A stretch of DNA of 40,280 bases from a virus: positions 1 to 40,280 of the IMG/VR virus record IMGVR_UViG_3300021957_000102; one strand, given 5' to 3'. Below are positions 26,368 to 34,961 of this stretch, piece after piece (position 1 is the first letter of the stretch; each line of letters opens with the position of its first letter). The position numbers were made by a program, and so were the translations under genes. The notes under the pieces were generated by a model. That model was given only the letters and a program-made list of their open reading frames with translations, did no database searches and was not told where the DNA came from.

Positions 26368-26766
26368 TTATGCTGCTAGGTTATCTAGCTCTGCGTTGAC
26401 ATCTTTCAACTGTGCTTCAAGCATACGCTTGGTTTTTAACAGTTGCATTTTGCCAGTGTTACGCTTGGCTTTGATCAAGCCGAGTGCTTGCAACACTTGA
26501 ACACGATAGGTGATACGGTGCTTGTACTCATTCATAGCTTGAGCTATCTCATTGACAGTCATATCGGCATAGTTCTCCAACAGTACCGTATCAATTACCA
26601 CATAATTGTAGGTATAGTTCACGGCTTTCTGCATGTGATACGTGTGATTGGCATACAACTCAGGGTGAAGTGTCTGTACAGTTGTGATTGTTGAATTTGT
26701 CATAGTGTTAGCTCCTTCGCTAGTTGGGGTTTGTGTAGATGTAGTTGTGTTGGTTTGAGTAGACAT
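26368..26766 (-). CDS. Putative winged-helix transcriptional regulator
   Basis: 132 aa from 26766. An in-frame ATG at 26703 (MTNSTITTVQ) has a better AAGGAG at 8 nt and would drop a 21-residue Thr/Gln-rich leader. Residues ~62-110 have a helix-turn-helix layout (ENYADMTVNEIAQAMN...ITYRVQVLQALGLIKAK) resembling ArsR/MarR-like winged helices: 'lt..eiA..l......tyrv..L...Glika'. A coiled coil (LLKTKRMLEAQLKDVNAEL) follows. It is the only clear HTH candidate in the early cluster, next to the palindromic repeats. Confidence 0.6.
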   Translation of the reverse strand: MSTQTNTTTSTQTPTSEGANTMTNSTITTVQTLHPELYANHTYHMQKAVNYTYNYVVIDTVLLENYADMTVNEIAQAMNEYKHRITYRVQVLQALGLIKAKRNTGKMQLLKTKRMLEAQLKDVNAELDNLAA

Positions 26767-26767
26767 G

Positions 26768-26911
26768 CTATGCTACCTTTCTTGCTTGTAGTTTCTGTTT
26801 ACGTGCTAACTTACGTTCACGTTTCCAATCATCATTATGTTTTTTATTAGCCCCAACGTTGGGGTTAGTTTTCTTGGTGAACTTAACGTAGTTCTGCATC
26901 TCGTAGCGCAT
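26768..26911 (-). CDS. Small basic protein carrying palindromic repeat copy 1 in frame (47 aa)
   Basis: 47 aa from the ATG at 26911 (MRYEMQNYVKFTKK), with AAGGAG 8 nt upstream. Upstream in-frame sequence is open only to a TTG. Residues 15-22 (TNPNVGAN) are encoded by the repeated palindrome. The rest is Lys/Arg-rich (WKRERKLARKQKLQARK), suggesting nucleic-acid binding. It overlaps the preceding 53-aa gene by 29 nt out of frame. Confidence 0.55.
   Translation of the reverse strand: MRYEMQNYVKFTKKTNPNVGANKKHNDDWKRERKLARKQKLQARKVA
26847..26869 (-). repeat. Palindromic element, copy 1 (in gene)
   Basis: 23-bp repeat with core CCCCAACGTTGGGG at 26851-26864, flanked by TTAG on the left and TTAGT on the right (+ strand). 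Lies inside the 47-aa gene, read as TNPNVGA(N) on the minus strand. Confidence 0.9.
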
Positions 26912-27044
26912 CTCTGAACTCCTTCTTACGGTTACGTTTGGCTTTGTTGCCCTTCTTTGGAAGGACAACCTGTGGTGATTTACGTTCCTGTAGCATTGCC
27001 TTTGCTACAGGGTTAACAATTCCTATTGTCGATTTAATTTTCAT
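26883..27044 (-). CDS. Small basic hypothetical protein (53 aa)
   Basis: 53 aa, MKIKSTIGIVNPVAKAMLQE..., with a strongly basic second half (PKKGNKAKRNRKKEFRDALRD). AAAGGA lies ~9 nt before the ATG. Many small phage proteins begin this way ('I.npVAkamlq.r...qvvp.KKGk.a'), and I recognise the type. Function unknown; nucleic-acid or ribosome binding is conceivable. Its end overlaps the next small gene by 29 nt. Confidence 0.7.
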   Translation of the reverse strand: MKIKSTIGIVNPVAKAMLQERKSPQVVLPKKGNKAKRNRKKEFRDALRDAELR

Positions 27045-27061
27045 TTAACTATTCCTTTTGA

Positions 27062-27787
27062 CTAGTCAATCACAAATCCACTTGTATCTTTCTTGGCACG
27101 TCCTTTGGCATACAAGCTGACCACTACGTTAGTAGGATCAAGGAACCTAAGATCGTCTGCATCACCAGATATAACTGGACGGTCAAGAAAGGTATCTGGG
27201 ATACACTCAATGTTACGCCATACAACTGCCATGTTCATACCTTTTGCTAAAGCAATGTCAACTTGTGGCTTGTAGCGTACATCAGCTTCGCTGTAGCTGA
27301 AGGTTAGATAATAATTATCAATATGTTCAACCTTACGGTTGGCAATCTTGGTGTAGTCGTAGAACTGAATATCAGGATAAGCTGCGAATATATTCTCATA
27401 TGTTACGTCATCCTTGACCACTGGTATACGTTCCCAACGTATGTCACTAGTGCCATTCAATCGTATGACAGGCTTGACAGATTGCTTTGCACAATACTTG
27501 GCAAACTTGCCACAGTCTACAACCATTGCCGCCATGAAGCCAACACGATCTGTTGCAAACCATTCGGTTTTCCTAGCACGTGATTGCTGTACTGTGTTCA
27601 TTGCACCACGTCCAGCGGTGAATAGGCAACCGTCAATGCAACCTGCTATCTCAGCATTGGCACAAACATTTATACCAGATGATTTCCAAGGCATCATATA
27701 CATGATTGCAGTTTCATACTTGTCACCATTGCCCTTGATTGTTTTGGCATCAGCACCACTAGCGATTAATTTACCACGATAAGCCAT
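27062..27787 (-). CDS. Gp88/DUF7227-like phage protein
   Basis: 241 aa. 'NVCANAEIAGCIDGCLFTAGRG' (C42, C50, C54), then VQQSRARKTEWFATDRVGFMAAM, VIRLNGTSDIRWE, and FYDYTKI resemble the phage 'gene product 88' family. The cysteines may bind a metal or Fe-S cluster. Biochemical role unknown. The start at 27787 has only a weak SD. Palindrome copy 2 lies 17 nt upstream, and the frame is open through it without a start codon ATG. Confidence 0.72.
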   Translation of the reverse strand: MAYRGKLIASGADAKTIKGNGDKYETAIMYMMPWKSSGINVCANAEIAGCIDGCLFTAGRGAMNTVQQSRARKTEWFATDRVGFMAAMVVDCGKFAKYCAKQSVKPVIRLNGTSDIRWERIPVVKDDVTYENIFAAYPDIQFYDYTKIANRKVEHIDNYYLTFSYSEADVRYKPQVDIALAKGMNMAVVWRNIECIPDTFLDRPVISGDADDLRFLDPTNVVVSLYAKGRAKKDTSGFVID

Positions 27788-27803
27788 TGTATGTTTCTTT
27801 CTG

Positions 27804-27826
27804 TTAGCCCCAACGTTGGGGTTAGT
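27804..27826 (-). repeat. Palindromic element, copy 2 (upstream of gp88-like gene)
   Basis: Identical 23 bp, core CCCCAACGTTGGGG at 27808-27821. Intergenic, but in the same reading frame (ACT AAC CCC AAC GTT GGG GCT) as the gene that starts 17 nt downstream on the minus strand. Confidence 0.9.
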
Positions 27827-27839
27827 TTCAGTTTGATTA

Positions 27840-28004
27840 TTAAGCTGGAAGTGATCCAGCTTTTCTAAGAATATTTATTACGTCTAAACGTTTGTGTCCA
27901 GATAAAGCACAAACCTCATGTATAGCACTAGCTACAGGTGTTTGTGTTTCCATTTTATTTTCATAATGGTCAACTACCATTTGGTTTGTCCAAAGCTTAA
28001 ACAT
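27840..28004 (-). CDS. Small hypothetical protein (54 aa)
   Basis: 54 aa from the ATG at 28004 (MFKLWTNQMVVDHYENKM), chosen because AAAGGA lies 9 nt upstream. A longer frame to 28058 runs through the leader and has no SD. The second half (ASAIHEVCALSGHKRLDVINILRKAG) looks like a small helical, HTH-like unit. Ends with double stops TAATAA. Not recognised. Confidence 0.58.
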   Translation of the reverse strand: MFKLWTNQMVVDHYENKMETQTPVASAIHEVCALSGHKRLDVINILRKAGSLPA

Positions 28005-28040
28005 GTCGAAATCCTTTATTGTTGTTGTTAATGTATATAT

Positions 28041-28081
28041 GTTATATAACACTTTCACTAAAGTATCAAGTGTTATATAAC
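28041..28081 (-). repeat. Intergenic hairpin A (perfect 14-bp stem)
   Basis: Perfect inverted repeat GTTATATAACACTT (28041-28054) / AAGTGTTATATAAC (28068-28081), 13-nt loop. It lies between two early genes in the leader of the 54-aa gene. No T run follows, so it is not a standard terminator. Loop and inner stem resemble elements B and C (CTTTCA...CAAGT). Confidence 0.75.
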
Positions 28082-28090
28082 TATATACTA

Positions 28091-28219
28091 TTAAAATAAT
28101 GTATCATGTATCATTGGCATCATTGCCAATAGGAATACAAATGCTACCCAACTAACGGTAAGGCAAACCCAACCGATAGTCCTATTGCGATTGATGCGCC
28201 TTGCTTCACGTAGTGTCAT
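28091..28219 (-). CDS. Small membrane protein (42 aa)
   Basis: 42 aa. A basic N-terminus (MTLREARRINRNR) is followed by one hydrophobic span (TIGWVCLTVSWVAFVFLLAM) and a short tail. By the positive-inside rule the N-terminus would be cytoplasmic. The start overlaps the upstream stop as ATGA. An inner-membrane target in the host early in infection is a reasonable guess. No family known. Confidence 0.65.
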   Translation of the reverse strand: MTLREARRINRNRTIGWVCLTVSWVAFVFLLAMMPMIHDTLF

Positions 28220-28431
28220 GTTGTATACCATCCTGTATCTGTTACCAATGTTTGCTTGCCATCCATCATGCCAAGCTCTGTTTTGTTAGCCCCAACGTTG
28301 GGGTTAGTTTTAGCTTCCTTCGCACGTGAGAGCTTTTCTTGTAGCTCTTCACGCCGCTTACGGTCTTTGACCTCTGCTGTCATAGCATCTGCCCAAGCCA
28401 TAGTAAAACTATTATGTTGCTTATATTTCAT
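28216..28431 (-). CDS. Small hypothetical protein carrying palindrome copy 3 in frame (71 aa)
   Basis: 71 aa from the ATG at 28431, the third of three adjacent ATGs, best spaced after GGAG; 28437 and 28434 are alternatives. A charged helix (AEVKDRKRREELQEKLSRAK) precedes TNPNVGAN at residues 42-49, encoded by the repeat, and a short tail 'GMMDGKQTLVTDTGWYTT'. The inserted peptide separates the helix from the tail like a linker. Overlaps both neighbours. Confidence 0.58.
   Translation of the reverse strand: MKYKQHNSFTMAWADAMTAEVKDRKRREELQEKLSRAKEAKTNPNVGANKTELGMMDGKQTLVTDTGWYTT
28288..28310 (-). repeat. Palindromic element, copy 3 (in gene)
   Basis: Identical 23 bp, core at 28292-28305. In frame with the 71-aa gene, encoding TNPNVGAN. 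Confidence 0.9.
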
Positions 28432-28660
28432 CATCATCTCCAAACATATTTGTCCACTCCAAAGGAGTCATGCCTGTCATCAGGAACTCTCTTTGATCTG
28501 GTGACAAATCAGGCATTATATCCTGTATTAGACCACCACCTGTTAGCCAAAGATCAATCTTATCTTGACTAACAGGTAATTGCATGGAATTTACTTCTTC
28601 AGTAAACATAGATACCATAGTGACGTTAGTCAAGTTTTCTGCCATACGTTCAATTCTCAT
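28421..28660 (-). CDS. Hypothetical early protein (79 aa)
   Basis: 79 aa, acidic C-terminus (FGDDDEI). 'LPVSQDKIDLWLTGGGLIQDIMPDLSPDQREFLMTGMTPLEW' resembles the 'G.liQd.lp.Ls...REfl..G.....W' pattern that I associate with small phage proteins of unknown role. AAAGG precedes the start at ~12 nt. Its end overlaps the next gene by 11 nt. Confidence 0.68.
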   Translation of the reverse strand: MRIERMAENLTNVTMVSMFTEEVNSMQLPVSQDKIDLWLTGGGLIQDIMPDLSPDQREFLMTGMTPLEWTNMFGDDDEI

Positions 28661-28683
28661 AACATTTTACCTTTCTTATGTAT

Positions 28684-28748
28684 GTTATATATATTTATAC
28701 TTTCATAAATTCAAGTATAAATATAAATAACTACATTAAGTAGTTATT
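28684..28748 (-). repeat. Tandem intergenic hairpin element B
   Basis: Two adjacent stem-loops between early genes. Long stem: 19-nt arms 28684-28702 and 28713-28731, 18 of 19 paired, 10-nt loop. Second stem: AATAACTAC (28726-28734) / GTAGTTATT (28740-28748), 5-nt loop, reaching into the stop codon of the preceding gene. The 48-bp long hairpin differs from element C at one loop base only. Confidence 0.8.
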
Positions 28749-28983
28749 AAACCCATTGTGGGTGAATGTTAGCTTGCTCAAGCCACCGCATAGCAGTGTC
28801 TATATCTGGCGCACCATGATCCATACAAGCATTGATACTTTTATCCTCAATAGCACGTTCCTCTGCAAGTTGATTATTCAACTCACGTTGTAAGCTGTCT
28901 AGCAACTCAGTTGTTGGCACTATGCCTCGTGGCCTAAAGCCATAAACATCTTTGTAAAGATCACTAAAAAAATCATAATCCAT
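28747..28983 (-). CDS. Hypothetical early protein (78 aa)
   Basis: 78 aa, starts MDYDFFSDLYKDVYGFRPRG, a motif I recognise in small phage proteins next to early promoters ('D.yKdvyGfRPRg'), function unknown. The rest is helical (LLDSLQRELNNQLAEERAIE) with a final Trp-rich part (MRWLEQANIHPQWV). AAAGGAGATTCAAA is an excellent ribosome binding site. Flanked on both sides by hairpin elements B and C. Confidence 0.72.
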   Translation of the reverse strand: MDYDFFSDLYKDVYGFRPRGIVPTTELLDSLQRELNNQLAEERAIEDKSINACMDHGAPDIDTAMRWLEQANIHPQWV

Positions 28984-29003
28984 TTTGAATCTCCTTTATG
29001 TGT

Positions 29004-29069
29004 GTTATATATATTTATACTTTCACAAATTCAAGTATAAATATAAATAACCACAGTAATGTGTGGTTA
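29004..29069 (-). repeat. Tandem intergenic hairpin element C
   Basis: Same plan as element B. Long stem arms 29004-29022 and 29033-29051 (18 of 19 paired). Second stem TAACCACA (29048-29055) / TGTGGTTA (29062-29069). Relative to B the second stem changes AACTAC/GTAGTT to AACCAC/GTGGTT, a compensatory base-pair change. Confidence 0.8.
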
Positions 29070-29081
29070 ATTGGTAACAGC

Positions 29082-29714
29082 CTAAGCTGCTACCTTGAGT
29101 TCTTCTTTTTCAGAGACAGTATCAATCTCCATAAGAGCCTCTGCTATGTCAAGAAGATCGACGTTAGCATATGCAGCGGCCTTGACTATGCTTTGAACGA
29201 TTTCCTCTTTTGTTGGTGGTGCTGTATTAGCCCCAACGTTGGGGTTAGTTTCAGCGACAGTATCTTCTTGTACTGTCTCTTCGGGTGTGTCTTCATCTGA
29301 TGATGGAGTGTTTGCTTTAGCAGCTTGTTTCATTGCTCTCTGCAAAGCAGTAAGTGAGGTGAAACCTTTCTTTGAGGTTTGCATGAACTCTCTTGCTTCT
29401 TCTTCATTAAGAACGAACCAGAGAGCTTCGGAACGGCGTTGATCTGGAATATCTTTGATATGGCAATCGGCCAATCTGGAAGATTTAATACGCTCACCAC
29501 CTTCGGCTTTGAGTTCAACCATCAGATTGCCAAGGGCAAGAGTGAAACCAGAGATCGCTTTGACGAAAACAGAAGCACTTTCTTTTGGTGCTTTACGATC
29601 AAGTGATCTATTGAAGTTTCTCATATCAACTTTGTTGAAAGTGTCGAACCTTTCCGCTAAGGCTTTGCCTTGATCCTCAAGAGTAGTGATGTTTTGAATT
29701 TGGAGGTTTGCCAT
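29082..29714 (-). CDS. First gene of the leftward early operon; hypothetical, carries palindrome copy 4
   Basis: 210 aa. A helical N-terminal domain with 'LADCHIKDIPDQRRSEALWFVLNEEEAREFMQTSKKGFTSLTAL' at ~81-123 is joined by an acidic, low-complexity linker (~136-168) to a helical C-terminus (EEIVQSIVKAAAYANVDLLDIAEAL). TNPNVGAN at 156-163 in the linker is the repeat-encoded peptide. AAAGGA lies 7 nt before the start. It follows the presumed main promoter, so it is probably made first after infection. Not recognised. Confidence 0.7.
   Translation of the reverse strand: MANLQIQNITTLEDQGKALAERFDTFNKVDMRNFNRSLDRKAPKESASVFVKAISGFTLALGNLMVELKAEGGERIKSSRLADCHIKDIPDQRRSEALWFVLNEEEAREFMQTSKKGFTSLTALQRAMKQAAKANTPSSDEDTPEETVQEDTVAETNPNVGANTAPPTKEEIVQSIVKAAAYANVDLLDIAEALMEIDTVSEKEELKVAA
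29227..29249 (-). repeat. Palindromic element, copy 4 (in gene)
   Basis: Identical 23 bp, core at 29231-29244. In frame within the acidic linker of the 210-aa protein. Confidence 0.9.
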
Positions 29715-29752
29715 TTTTTCGTTCCTTTATGTATATTCTATTTATATAAGAG

Positions 29753-29787
29753 ATTATTACTCTCTCACAAAAAGTGAGAGTAATAAT
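29753..29787 (-). promoter_or_regulatory. 5'-leader hairpin D
   Basis: Perfect 12-bp stem ATTATTACTCTC (29753-29764) / GAGAGTAATAAT (29776-29787), 11-nt loop containing CAC...GTG. It would lie at the very 5' end of the leftward early transcript, just after the -10 box. A 5' stem-loop of this kind often stabilises phage mRNA; that use is inferred. Confidence 0.6.
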
Positions 29788-29790
29788 ATC

Positions 29791-29821
29791 GTTATAAATA
29801 TGAATATACTATAGTTGTCAA
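29791..29821 (-). promoter_or_regulatory. Probable leftward early promoter
   Basis: On the minus strand a perfect -35 box TTGACA (29821-29816) is followed 19 nt later by TATAAC (29796-29791), five of six to the sigma-70 -10 consensus; with 17 nt spacing the box would be TTTATA. It lies ~75 bp upstream of the first leftward gene with nothing else between. Host-polymerase recognition would fit a phage without its own RNA polymerase. Confidence 0.6.
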
Positions 29822-29963
29822 TCCACAAAATTTGCCTCGTGATCCTCTGCCCACGCCGTTTCCCACGCTACTGCAAAAATATATTTCATATATATTTTGA
29901 AGTTCGTGCGCTAAACTTGTGAGGCCAACCACTATCCAATCACCATAACTGTGACAAATATAT

Positions 29964-30265
29964 CACTATCAAAGATAGTGTTAGCCCCAACGTTGGGGTT
30001 AGTGATTTACATTGGCAGAGCTAATGCGGCTTGTAGGATCACATGATTGACCAATGGTATTGGTAAGAGGGGGTAGGGTTCTGTACAGCTTTGCTGTAAG
30101 GGTATCTATCAGCATAGCTGATGTAGTGGATAATATGCATCGGCATCACTACACATCTTCGATGTGAAAATCCCCCCTGTTTTTTCACTACTTGTAGTGG
30201 CAACTGATTGCATAACAGTTGTCGTAGACAAGTAACCTGTTGAAACTAAACGTATCTTCGATACG
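29964..30265. repeat. Array of short hairpins, mostly with 3-nt loops
   Basis: Perfect inverted repeats in order: CACTATC-AAA-GATAGTG (29964-29980), ACCAAT-GGT-ATTGGT (30050-30064), TACAGC-TTT-GCTGTA (30084-30098), ATCAGC-ATA-GCTGAT (30108-30122), GTAGTG/CACTAC enclosing ATGC/GCAT (30123-30152), CACATC-TTC-GATGTG (30152-30166), GTGAAAA/TTTTCAC (30164-30188), CACTAC-TT-GTAGTG (30186-30199), CAACTG/CAGTTG (30201-30221), CGTATC-TTC-GATACG (30251-30265). Stem sequences differ but stem length and loop size are nearly constant. Confidence 0.8.
29981..30003 (-). repeat. Palindromic element, copy 5 (control region)
   Basis: Identical 23 bp, core at 29985-29998. Not in any gene. It directly abuts a 7-bp hairpin (29964-29980). 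Confidence 0.9.
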
Positions 30266-30304
30266 GTGGTGAATGATGCTATCACATTTGCTTTCAACCT
30301 GCGT

Positions 30305-30366
30305 CATGGCCTTGCATTATGGGCGCAATTGCACGTTGAAGGTGGGTGGGCAGGGGCCATGCGCCC
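30305..30366. repeat. GC-rich patch with interlocking inverted repeats
   Basis: CATGGCC (30305-30311) pairs with GGCCATG (30355-30361), and GGGCGCA (30321-30327) pairs with TGCGCCC (30360-30366). The two right arms overlap by two bases, so the folds are alternatives. The patch is much richer in GC than the surrounding AT-rich DNA. Confidence 0.55.
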
Positions 30367-30595
30367 CCCTAGCGTTATATATGCATGAACTCCTACACAG
30401 ATCAGGAAAATGAGGTGTTAACCACATTACACATATAGTGGTTTACAGTATTATGTGATCACAAATATAGTGTTGTATATGTGCAACACAGCAACATTAA
30501 TAAATATAATGCTATCACAGTACGATTTACTATTGACATAATAATTAGAATGTGTAAAACTAAGTATAATAGTTAGGGTAGGGTCACTATAAGTG

Positions 30596-30682
30596 ATACA
30601 CGTACAGTAAAACACTTAAATACACACATACATAACTAAAATAACATATATCTATAAATACATATAAGTATACACGTACAGT
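30596..30682. repeat. Pair of 13-bp direct repeats
   Basis: ATACACGTACAGT occurs at 30596-30608 and again at 30670-30682, 74 bp apart, within very AT-rich DNA. The related sequence GATACAC is beside each copy. Possible binding sites of a regulator or initiator; no further copies seen. Confidence 0.6.
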
Positions 30683-30775
30683 GATACACTTTAAGTGAAG
30701 ATACATGTAGCTATATACGTAGATAATCGCTGTTAGGCGAGTATTTTTTGTATATATAAATAAAAAGTATTGACA

Positions 30776-34088: not shown

Positions 34089-34239
34089 AGCTGGTAACTA
34101 CACTAAACCTACAATGAGAAAAAGCATGTTTAATAGGATTAAAGCAGGTTCTAAAGGTGGGGGTGCAGGTCAATGGTCTGCACGTAAGGCGCAGCTATTG
34201 GCCTCTCAATATAAGAAAAAAGGTGGAGGATACACATAA
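34057..34239 (+). CDS. Small basic protein, conserved type in marine phages (60 aa)
   Basis: 60 aa, start GTG at 34057. 'MKSIRKSTVNKAGNYTKPTMRK' followed by 'FNRIKAGSKGGGAGQWSARKAQLLASQYKKKGGGYT' is a form I know well from marine phage genomes, usually upstream of lysis and packaging genes. Highly basic, probably binds nucleic acid; function unknown. TAATG coupling to the next gene. Confidence 0.75.
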   Translation: MKSIRKSTVNKAGNYTKPTMRKSMFNRIKAGSKGGGAGQWSARKAQLLASQYKKKGGGYT

Positions 34240-34961
34240 TGACTATTCAACGCAAACCGACAATGCCAGCTATGAAAAAAAGAGGTGGTATAGGAAGTAT
34301 GGGAAGTGGTAAACCTACAGCTAGACCAAAGGCTACAGGAAGAACTGTATATAAATCCAGAACAACTATACCAACAAGACGTGTAGCTAAACCTACACAA
34401 ACACCCAGACAAAAAGCAATAGCAGGAGCAAAAGCTAGAGGTCAAGCAAAAATAGCAGCAATAAAAAACAGATATAATTCTTTAACACCAGCACAAAAAA
34501 CAGCAATGAAGCAAAAACAACAGGCAAAAGCACTTTCATTTAAACAAAGGCAAGCTACTAATAAAGCTACACCAACTAAAACAACTGGCACTCTTGGTAA
34601 TCCTACTTCAACACAAAAAAAAATAAATAATACTAATATGCAAAAAGCTTATCCTGAAGTTAAACAGCTTTCTGCTCCACAAAAACAAATGCCTAGAACA
34701 ACCTCTTCTGTACCTGATAGATTAAAAAAGATAGTAGGTTCTACAGTAGCTAGACGTAGAAAAGCAATAGCAGTAGCAAAAGCTAGAAGTCAAGCAAAAA
34801 TAGCAGCAGCAATCGCTAGTAGACCTAGAGGAAGAACACCGTATCAAAATGCTGCGTTAAAACATCTCGCGAGTTTACGTAAAAAAACTGTACGTAGACC
34901 TACAGGAAGAACTGTATATAAATCCAGAACAACTATACCAACAAGGCGTAGGAGAAAGTAA
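34239..34961 (+). CDS. Extremely basic repetitive protein (240 aa)
   Basis: 240 aa, about a quarter Lys and Arg, few acidic residues. Internal duplications in mirror order: GRTVYKSRTTIPTRR near residues 34 and 222, and (R/Q)KAIA-x-AKAR-x-QAKIAA near 58 and 175. Composition is like a histone-like or DNA-condensing protein; a virion DNA-binding role is inferred. Coupled by TAATG overlaps at both ends. The gene itself contains a 46-bp perfect direct repeat. Confidence 0.65.
   Translation: MTIQRKPTMPAMKKRGGIGSMGSGKPTARPKATGRTVYKSRTTIPTRRVAKPTQTPRQKAIAGAKARGQAKIAAIKNRYNSLTPAQKTAMKQKQQAKALSFKQRQATNKATPTKTTGTLGNPTSTQKKINNTNMQKAYPEVKQLSAPQKQMPRTTSSVPDRLKKIVGSTVARRRKAIAVAKARSQAKIAAAIASRPRGRTPYQNAALKHLASLRKKTVRRPTGRTVYKSRTTIPTRRRRK
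34333..34378 (+). repeat. 46-bp perfect direct repeat, left copy
   Basis: Identical to 34900-34945, 567 bp further on. Encodes TGRTVYKSRTTIPTR in frame in both places of the basic protein gene. Confidence 0.9.
34900..34945 (+). repeat. 46-bp perfect direct repeat, right copy
   Basis: Identical at DNA level to 34333-34378, including all third codon positions, so the duplication or conversion is recent. Confidence 0.9.

Follow-up and report, generated by a model that had tools for sequence, protein, structure and literature searches.

In cluster A mycobacteriophages (L5, Bxb1 and TipsytheTRex), the stoperator motif and the repressor diverge together (PMC6550527), and the stoperators are asymmetric sites that are bound by a monomer (PMC9283540). 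In plasmid RK2, the palindromic operators of KorB and KorA are found along the replicon, some of them away from promoters (PMC11790492, PMC4889941). Here, we describe a family of 14 bp palindromes in the early region of a viral genome (IMG/VR record IMGVR_UViG_3300021957_000102, positions 1 to 40,280, the whole of which is called the window below), together with gp01, the product of the first gene of the operon that contains them. The palindromes are most probably operators of a self-regulating, dimeric gp01 that represses or roadblocks early transcription. Cluster A is the described system closest to this one in its working: one phage protein appears to be matched to many short sites, including sites outside promoters, and the site motif and the protein diverge jointly into specificity classes. 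RK2 is similar in that the palindromic operators of one regulator are dispersed, some of them off promoters.

The 23 bp sequence TTAGCCCCAACGTTGGGGTTAGT was found in five identical copies, all in a single orientation, starting at positions 26847, 27804, 28286, 29227 and 29981, and within these lie exact copies of the 14 bp palindrome CCCCAACGTTGGGG (at 26851, 27808, 28290, 29231 and 29985). No sixth match to the 14-mer was found in the 40,280 nt window with up to three mismatches allowed. When the window was shuffled, 0.41 matches to the 14-mer were expected and five were reached in none of 100 shuffles. The recount, the mismatch search and the shuffles thus agree with the first-pass annotation of this DNA, which had recorded five identical copies in one orientation and none elsewhere in the window; the sole error in that observation was the third coordinate, given as 28288 and so two bases off. 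Three copies are translated as TNPNVGAN in minus-strand open reading frames (ORFs). These are site 2 (29227–29249) within gp01, recognized as an exact repeat and from relatives, site 3 (28286–28308) within a 75 aa ORF (28216–28443), and site 5 (26847–26869) within a small basic ORF (26768–26968). Site 4 (27804–27826) is in the frame of the GP88-type gene at 27062–27787 but 5′ of its ATG, between that gene and a promoter-like element, while site 1 (29981–30003) is intergenic, upstream of gp01. None of the five sites was assigned a strand. The ORF translations bear out the earlier statement that three copies are read in frame as TNPNVGAN with a fourth in frame upstream of a gene, and the view that the nucleic acid is what is under selection, the peptide being tolerated, was also judged correct. 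A scan of the window against Rfam gave no match.

The window belongs to an HMO-2011-type phage. The DNA polymerase shows 80%, 78% and 68% identity to those of Roseobacter phage CRP-345, CRP-1 and HMO-2011, respectively, and the gene order is common to the window and HMO-2011-type phages, which have been described as ocean-dominant and widespread (PMC9038755). The palindromes lie within a leftward operon, which its position and gene order suggest is early, and its first gene is gp01 (29082–29714, minus strand, 210 aa). No description of the palindromes was found in a literature search, and no regulator, repressor or palindrome was found in the HMO-2011 literature examined.

An exact 22-mer search of IMG/VR returned one near-identical contig as its sole match, which alone would suggest a private repeat; symmetric variants emerged only from the inspection of relatives. 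The sample comprised about 150 loci from IMG/VR, some of which share a contig and many of which are on fragments, with locus E-values that are relative to the candidate set only. Most of these loci contained three to eight copies of one palindrome family at homologous places. As relatives carry the site at the same places, the description of the element as inserted into the genes is an interpretation. The family core is CC-R-A-nn-T-Y-GG and most genomes use one uniform set of letters. Between phages the letters fall into symmetric classes, GTCC-A-A..T-T-GGAC, GTCC-G-A..T-C-GGAC, CCCC-A-A.. and CCCC-G-A.., so named below by the inner base (A or G) or the outer pair (GT or CC). CRP-1 has GTCCAACGTTGGAC in place of the CCCCAACGTTGGGG of the window, the relative at locus L012 has five copies of CCCCGATGTCGGGG at the same places as in the window, and other relatives have GTCCGATGTCGGAC. 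The centre of the palindrome is nearly always a pyrimidine–purine (YR) step, and the main centres (TG, CA, CG, CC and GG) are closed under reverse complement. The flanks beyond the 14 bp are variable in the GT class. In the CC class (the window, L012 and L133, from two unrelated lineages), 4 bp flanks, CTAA...CTAA, are mostly constant and in one orientation.

The distribution of the sites follows gp01. In 356 kb lying upstream of position −500 relative to gp01 there were none, about 400 were found between −500 and +3500, and there were a few additional sites beyond these. The upstream site was present in 73 of 89 gp01 loci. A site was found inside gp01 in 84 of 89 homologues, and all 85 such sites share one frame. 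HMO-2011 itself has both a gp01 homologue, gp74, and five copies of a diverged version of the palindrome, one of them 289 bp above gp74 and another directly after the gp74 stop.

The site letters covary with residues in gp01. The sequence GFTSLTALQxAM[RK] was found in most inner-A phages, while most inner-G phages have SLSALQKAM followed mostly by a residue other than R or K. At residue 122, T was found in 60 of 61 A-class proteins and S in 16 of 16 in the G class (Fisher p = 1e-15, uncorrected for ancestry). Residues 122, 126 and 129 are positions i, i+4 and i+7, and hence on one face, of a helix predicted at 121–134, and their columns ranked top for covariation apart from column 159, which was set aside as circular because it lies inside the palindrome. 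To correct for ancestry, a tree was used that omits columns 122, 126 and 129 and the palindrome codons, and seven well-supported independent pairs were drawn from it. The site class changed at least 10 times on this tree, and class-concordant change at residues 122, 126 and 129 was found in 6.6, 6.9 and 6.5 of the seven pairs, respectively, with discordant change in none (sign test approximately 0.016–0.03). For the outer bases, all 83 GT-class proteins have K or R at residue 91, and the three CC-class proteins have D, D and S, a link that lacks firmness because the CC class arose just twice, too few origins. Ten other genes in the region, including one for a winged-helix protein, had no comparably clean column (for GP88, this is from nine sequences only). 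Binding of the palindromes by gp01 is strongly supported by these comparisons, which would yield an explicit predicted recognition code: T122 with A, S122-K126 with G, and residue 91 with the outer pair.

Natural switches were found among close relatives. The gp01 of L012 is 96% identical to that of the window and differs by T122S, R126K and K129A, and the inner pair is changed in all five of its sites. A 58.6 kb contig (L191) is 90–98% identical to the window across most of 20 kb, whereas its gp01 is only about 40% identical to the window protein; at its sites 1, 4 and 5 the element is swapped for GTCCGACGTTGGAC with different flanking bases, while the adjacent DNA hardly differs on one or both sides. 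Phages that combine S122 with R or K at residues 126 and 129 had mostly hybrid sites, GTCCGA..TTGGAC, in which one half is of the G and the other of the A type, and these are plausible intermediates of relaxed specificity. Protein and sites also occur together. In a sample anchored on DUF932, all 22 contigs that extend far enough upstream had gp01 and at least three sites (some overlap with earlier contigs), while CRP-207, CRP-603, CRP-2, HTVC033P and CRP-3 had neither gp01 nor a repeated palindrome family in the stretches examined. There is good support for the sites, for the way in which they change in concert and for their coevolution with gp01.

CRP-3 has been demonstrated to integrate (PMC6918029), and as gp01 was absent from the 6 kb of CRP-3 examined, gp01 is not simply the lysogeny repressor of the group. 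A search for gp01 in bacterial genomes and prophages did not find it.

Many of the sites are placed after a conserved promoter-like element, TTGATACTTTAGTGAAAGTGTTATATAAC, found in the window at 28041–28069 (minus strand) with a small ORF (27840–28058) between it and site 4. Allowing up to eight mismatches, this element had 70 matches in 90 contigs and the reversed motif had none. The distance from the element to the start of the next palindrome was 28–34 bp in 38 cases and 18–19 bp in 18 cases, together 56 of 69, and approximately 190–280 bp where a single small gene lies in between, which is the case in the window. Such sites would follow closely on the putative start of transcription, and a protein bound to them would stop escape or elongation; an autoregulatory repressor or roadblock is favoured because of this placement. 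Two further elements on the minus strand precede gp01, both identified by consensus match only: a sigma-70-like promoter, TTGACA-N17-TTTATA, between site 1 and gp01 (29793–29821) and a second promoter-like element, TTGTGA-N18-TATAAA (29741–29770). Near-identical AT-rich inverted repeats at 28684–28731 and 29004–29051, before small early genes, resemble the element at 28041–28069.

In the model that we propose, the operator would be a 14 bp sequence with the core N-N-CC-R-A-nn-T-Y-GG-N-N, bound by a two-fold symmetric gp01. Each half-site would be read by the helix at residues 121–134 (codons at 29313–29354, minus strand; T122, R126 and K129 in the window), which is put forward as the recognition helix from AlphaFold2 models and covariation, with residues 122, 126 and 129 reading the inner base pair. 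Residue 91 (Asp in the window; codon at 29442–29444, minus strand) may contact and influence the outer two base pairs. Made early, gp01 would occupy the upstream site, the site in its own gene, the sites below internal early promoters and those in downstream genes, and the bound protein would repress or roadblock early transcription, its own included. The intragenic sites, mostly held in one frame, would encode a small hydrophilic peptide (xNVG/xDVG), which in gp01 would be part of a flexible linker; site 2 is housed in frame in a segment predicted to be disordered (residues 137–164, 29223–29306, minus strand; predicted local distance difference test score, pLDDT, <50). We infer the dimeric binding, DNA rather than RNA as the target, the direction of regulation and a role in immunity.

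The differences from the described systems are substantial. In contrast to the asymmetric 13 bp sites of cluster A, those found here are near-perfect 14 bp palindromes (in about 90 phages), suggestive of a dimer, and they number three to eight, are in the early region and in several cases intragenic, compared with 20–30 genome-wide. Unlike the cluster A repressor, gp01 is encoded by the first early gene and not at a lysogeny repressor locus, is unrelated in sequence, and has no match to a helix-turn-helix (HTH) or stoperator domain. KorB is a ParB-type clamp, whereas gp01 has no match to the ParB N-terminal CTPase or an HTH.

Several points weigh against a DNA-binding repressor. No recognizable DNA-binding fold was found in gp01: it had no PDB sequence match, no Pfam family matched it consistently, and Foldseek searches with two AlphaFold2 models of moderate confidence (predicted template modelling score, pTM, 0.50 and 0.54) gave no PDB match at E ≤ 0.001. 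In BFVD, the sole match at this threshold was an unnamed viral protein, S4S2E1, and a single member of the gp01 family matches one PHROG, without annotated function, while the gp01 of the window matches no PHROG and no Pfam family. Simple promoter occlusion is also insufficient to account for every site, because site 1 is well above the predicted promoter and the intragenic sites are far from any. The gp01 start codon is 284 bp below site 1, with both predicted promoters in between, hence looping or another role would be needed for this site. Finally, a symmetric DNA site predicts no orientation preference, yet the hybrid sites are G..T in 25 cases and A..C in two, and downstream sites without an ORF have TG centres in 68 cases and CA in 14. 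Shared ancestry or strand-biased mutation could produce such a preference.

These asymmetries, with the G-U wobble that RNA allows, would fit sites that act as short transcript hairpins (a 5 bp stem and ANNU loop), with gp01 an RNA-binding antiterminator or leader regulator in phage-specific pairs. In phage lambda, N is the product of the first early gene, the nut sites lie shortly below the early promoters, protein and site form phage-specific pairs, and nut acts in RNA. The resemblance extends to gp01 being the first early gene, to the phage-specific pairing and to the many sites at 18–34 bp (or 190–280 bp with an intervening gene) below promoter-like elements, as for nutL and nutR. As related phages were counted repeatedly, the orientation counts do not decide between DNA and RNA, and RNA is thus the main rival. 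However, site 1 is located above both predicted promoters of gp01 and has near-neutral centres (TG 29, CA 22), TG and CA interchange at homologous sites (site 5 of L017 and L019) despite the different RNA loops that result, and the A6/T9 symmetry and YR centre characterize a DNA dyad rather than a tetraloop. Unlike lambda N, gp01 lacks an N-terminal arginine-rich peptide, its basic KRRR motif being in the middle of the protein, where a helix begins. We consider the RNA explanation unlikely. There is a correspondingly small chance that gp01, a protein without a known fold, is the founding member of a new antitermination or RNA-leader system in which hairpin specificity has switched repeatedly and in concert across marine phages.

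It is quite improbable that the same protein and sites serve partition, as a ParB/KorB-like centromere, or the organization of replication instead of transcription. Plasmid systems such as RK2 KorB also have scattered palindromes read by one protein (PMC11790492), and a hairpin-rich non-coding stretch adjoins site 1, but gp01 has no match to ParB, KorB or another family, no ParA was recognized among the ten early genes scanned, and the spacing of sites after promoter-like elements is fixed. The first-pass annotation had listed operators of a dimeric phage regulator among its options, with the winged-helix protein at 26368–26766 as the example. The kind of site was well chosen; the binder was not. 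That protein has a weak MarR-like match and its gene, which follows that of site 5, adjoins the site, but it has no clean covarying column: the best one holds a 0.59 share of the class information, compared with 0.84 for gp01 residue 122. In three G-class phages (L013, L017 and L019) an unrelated 76 aa protein takes its place, while other G-class phages have it. We regard it as very unlikely to be the binder. An association of this gene with site class, suggested initially by its presence in four of four A-class phages, failed in a larger sample. Rickettsia palindromic elements are long mobile repeats that are read in frame inside proteins, and a small mobile element of this kind was another of the earlier proposals. 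Palindromic DNA is likewise translated in frame here, and between close relatives an element of approximately 22–24 bp is exchanged with exact boundaries. Spread by mobility is nonetheless extremely unlikely: the element is 23 bp, neither a long palindrome nor present in scattered copies, and confined to one early operon, with no sites in the 356 kb upstream. The 14 bp sites keep conserved places and their letters change together within each genome, in step with gp01.

If the palindromes are gp01 operators, HMO-2011-type phages gain a candidate for early regulation whose protein family has no known relatives. Operators would be kept inside coding sequence, one of them within the gene of the regulator itself. 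This would also be a rare case in which the specificity change of a multi-site regulatory network can be read in standing variation, hybrid-site intermediates included. The recurrent, concerted switching of specificity suggests immunity-like classes that would block the action of gp01 on the operators of other phages, and hints at an immunity-like conflict between phages.

Other features of the region were noted. The hairpin-rich non-coding stretch (30003–30770) separates the leftward early genes from the rightward genes and is possibly an origin or divergent control region. The approximately 70 bp immediately above site 1 are nearly constant in the window, L191 and L012 and contain ACCAATaccATTGGT. 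An internal duplication at 34239–34961 includes 49 and 50 bp repeats that are 96–98% identical (34412/34760 and 34333/34900). The integrase genes of CRP-1 and CRP-345 (position 6868 in L008 and 7079 in L009) contain GTCCAAGGTTGGAC, which is absent from the integrase gene of the window and was found at a similar far-downstream place in relatives.

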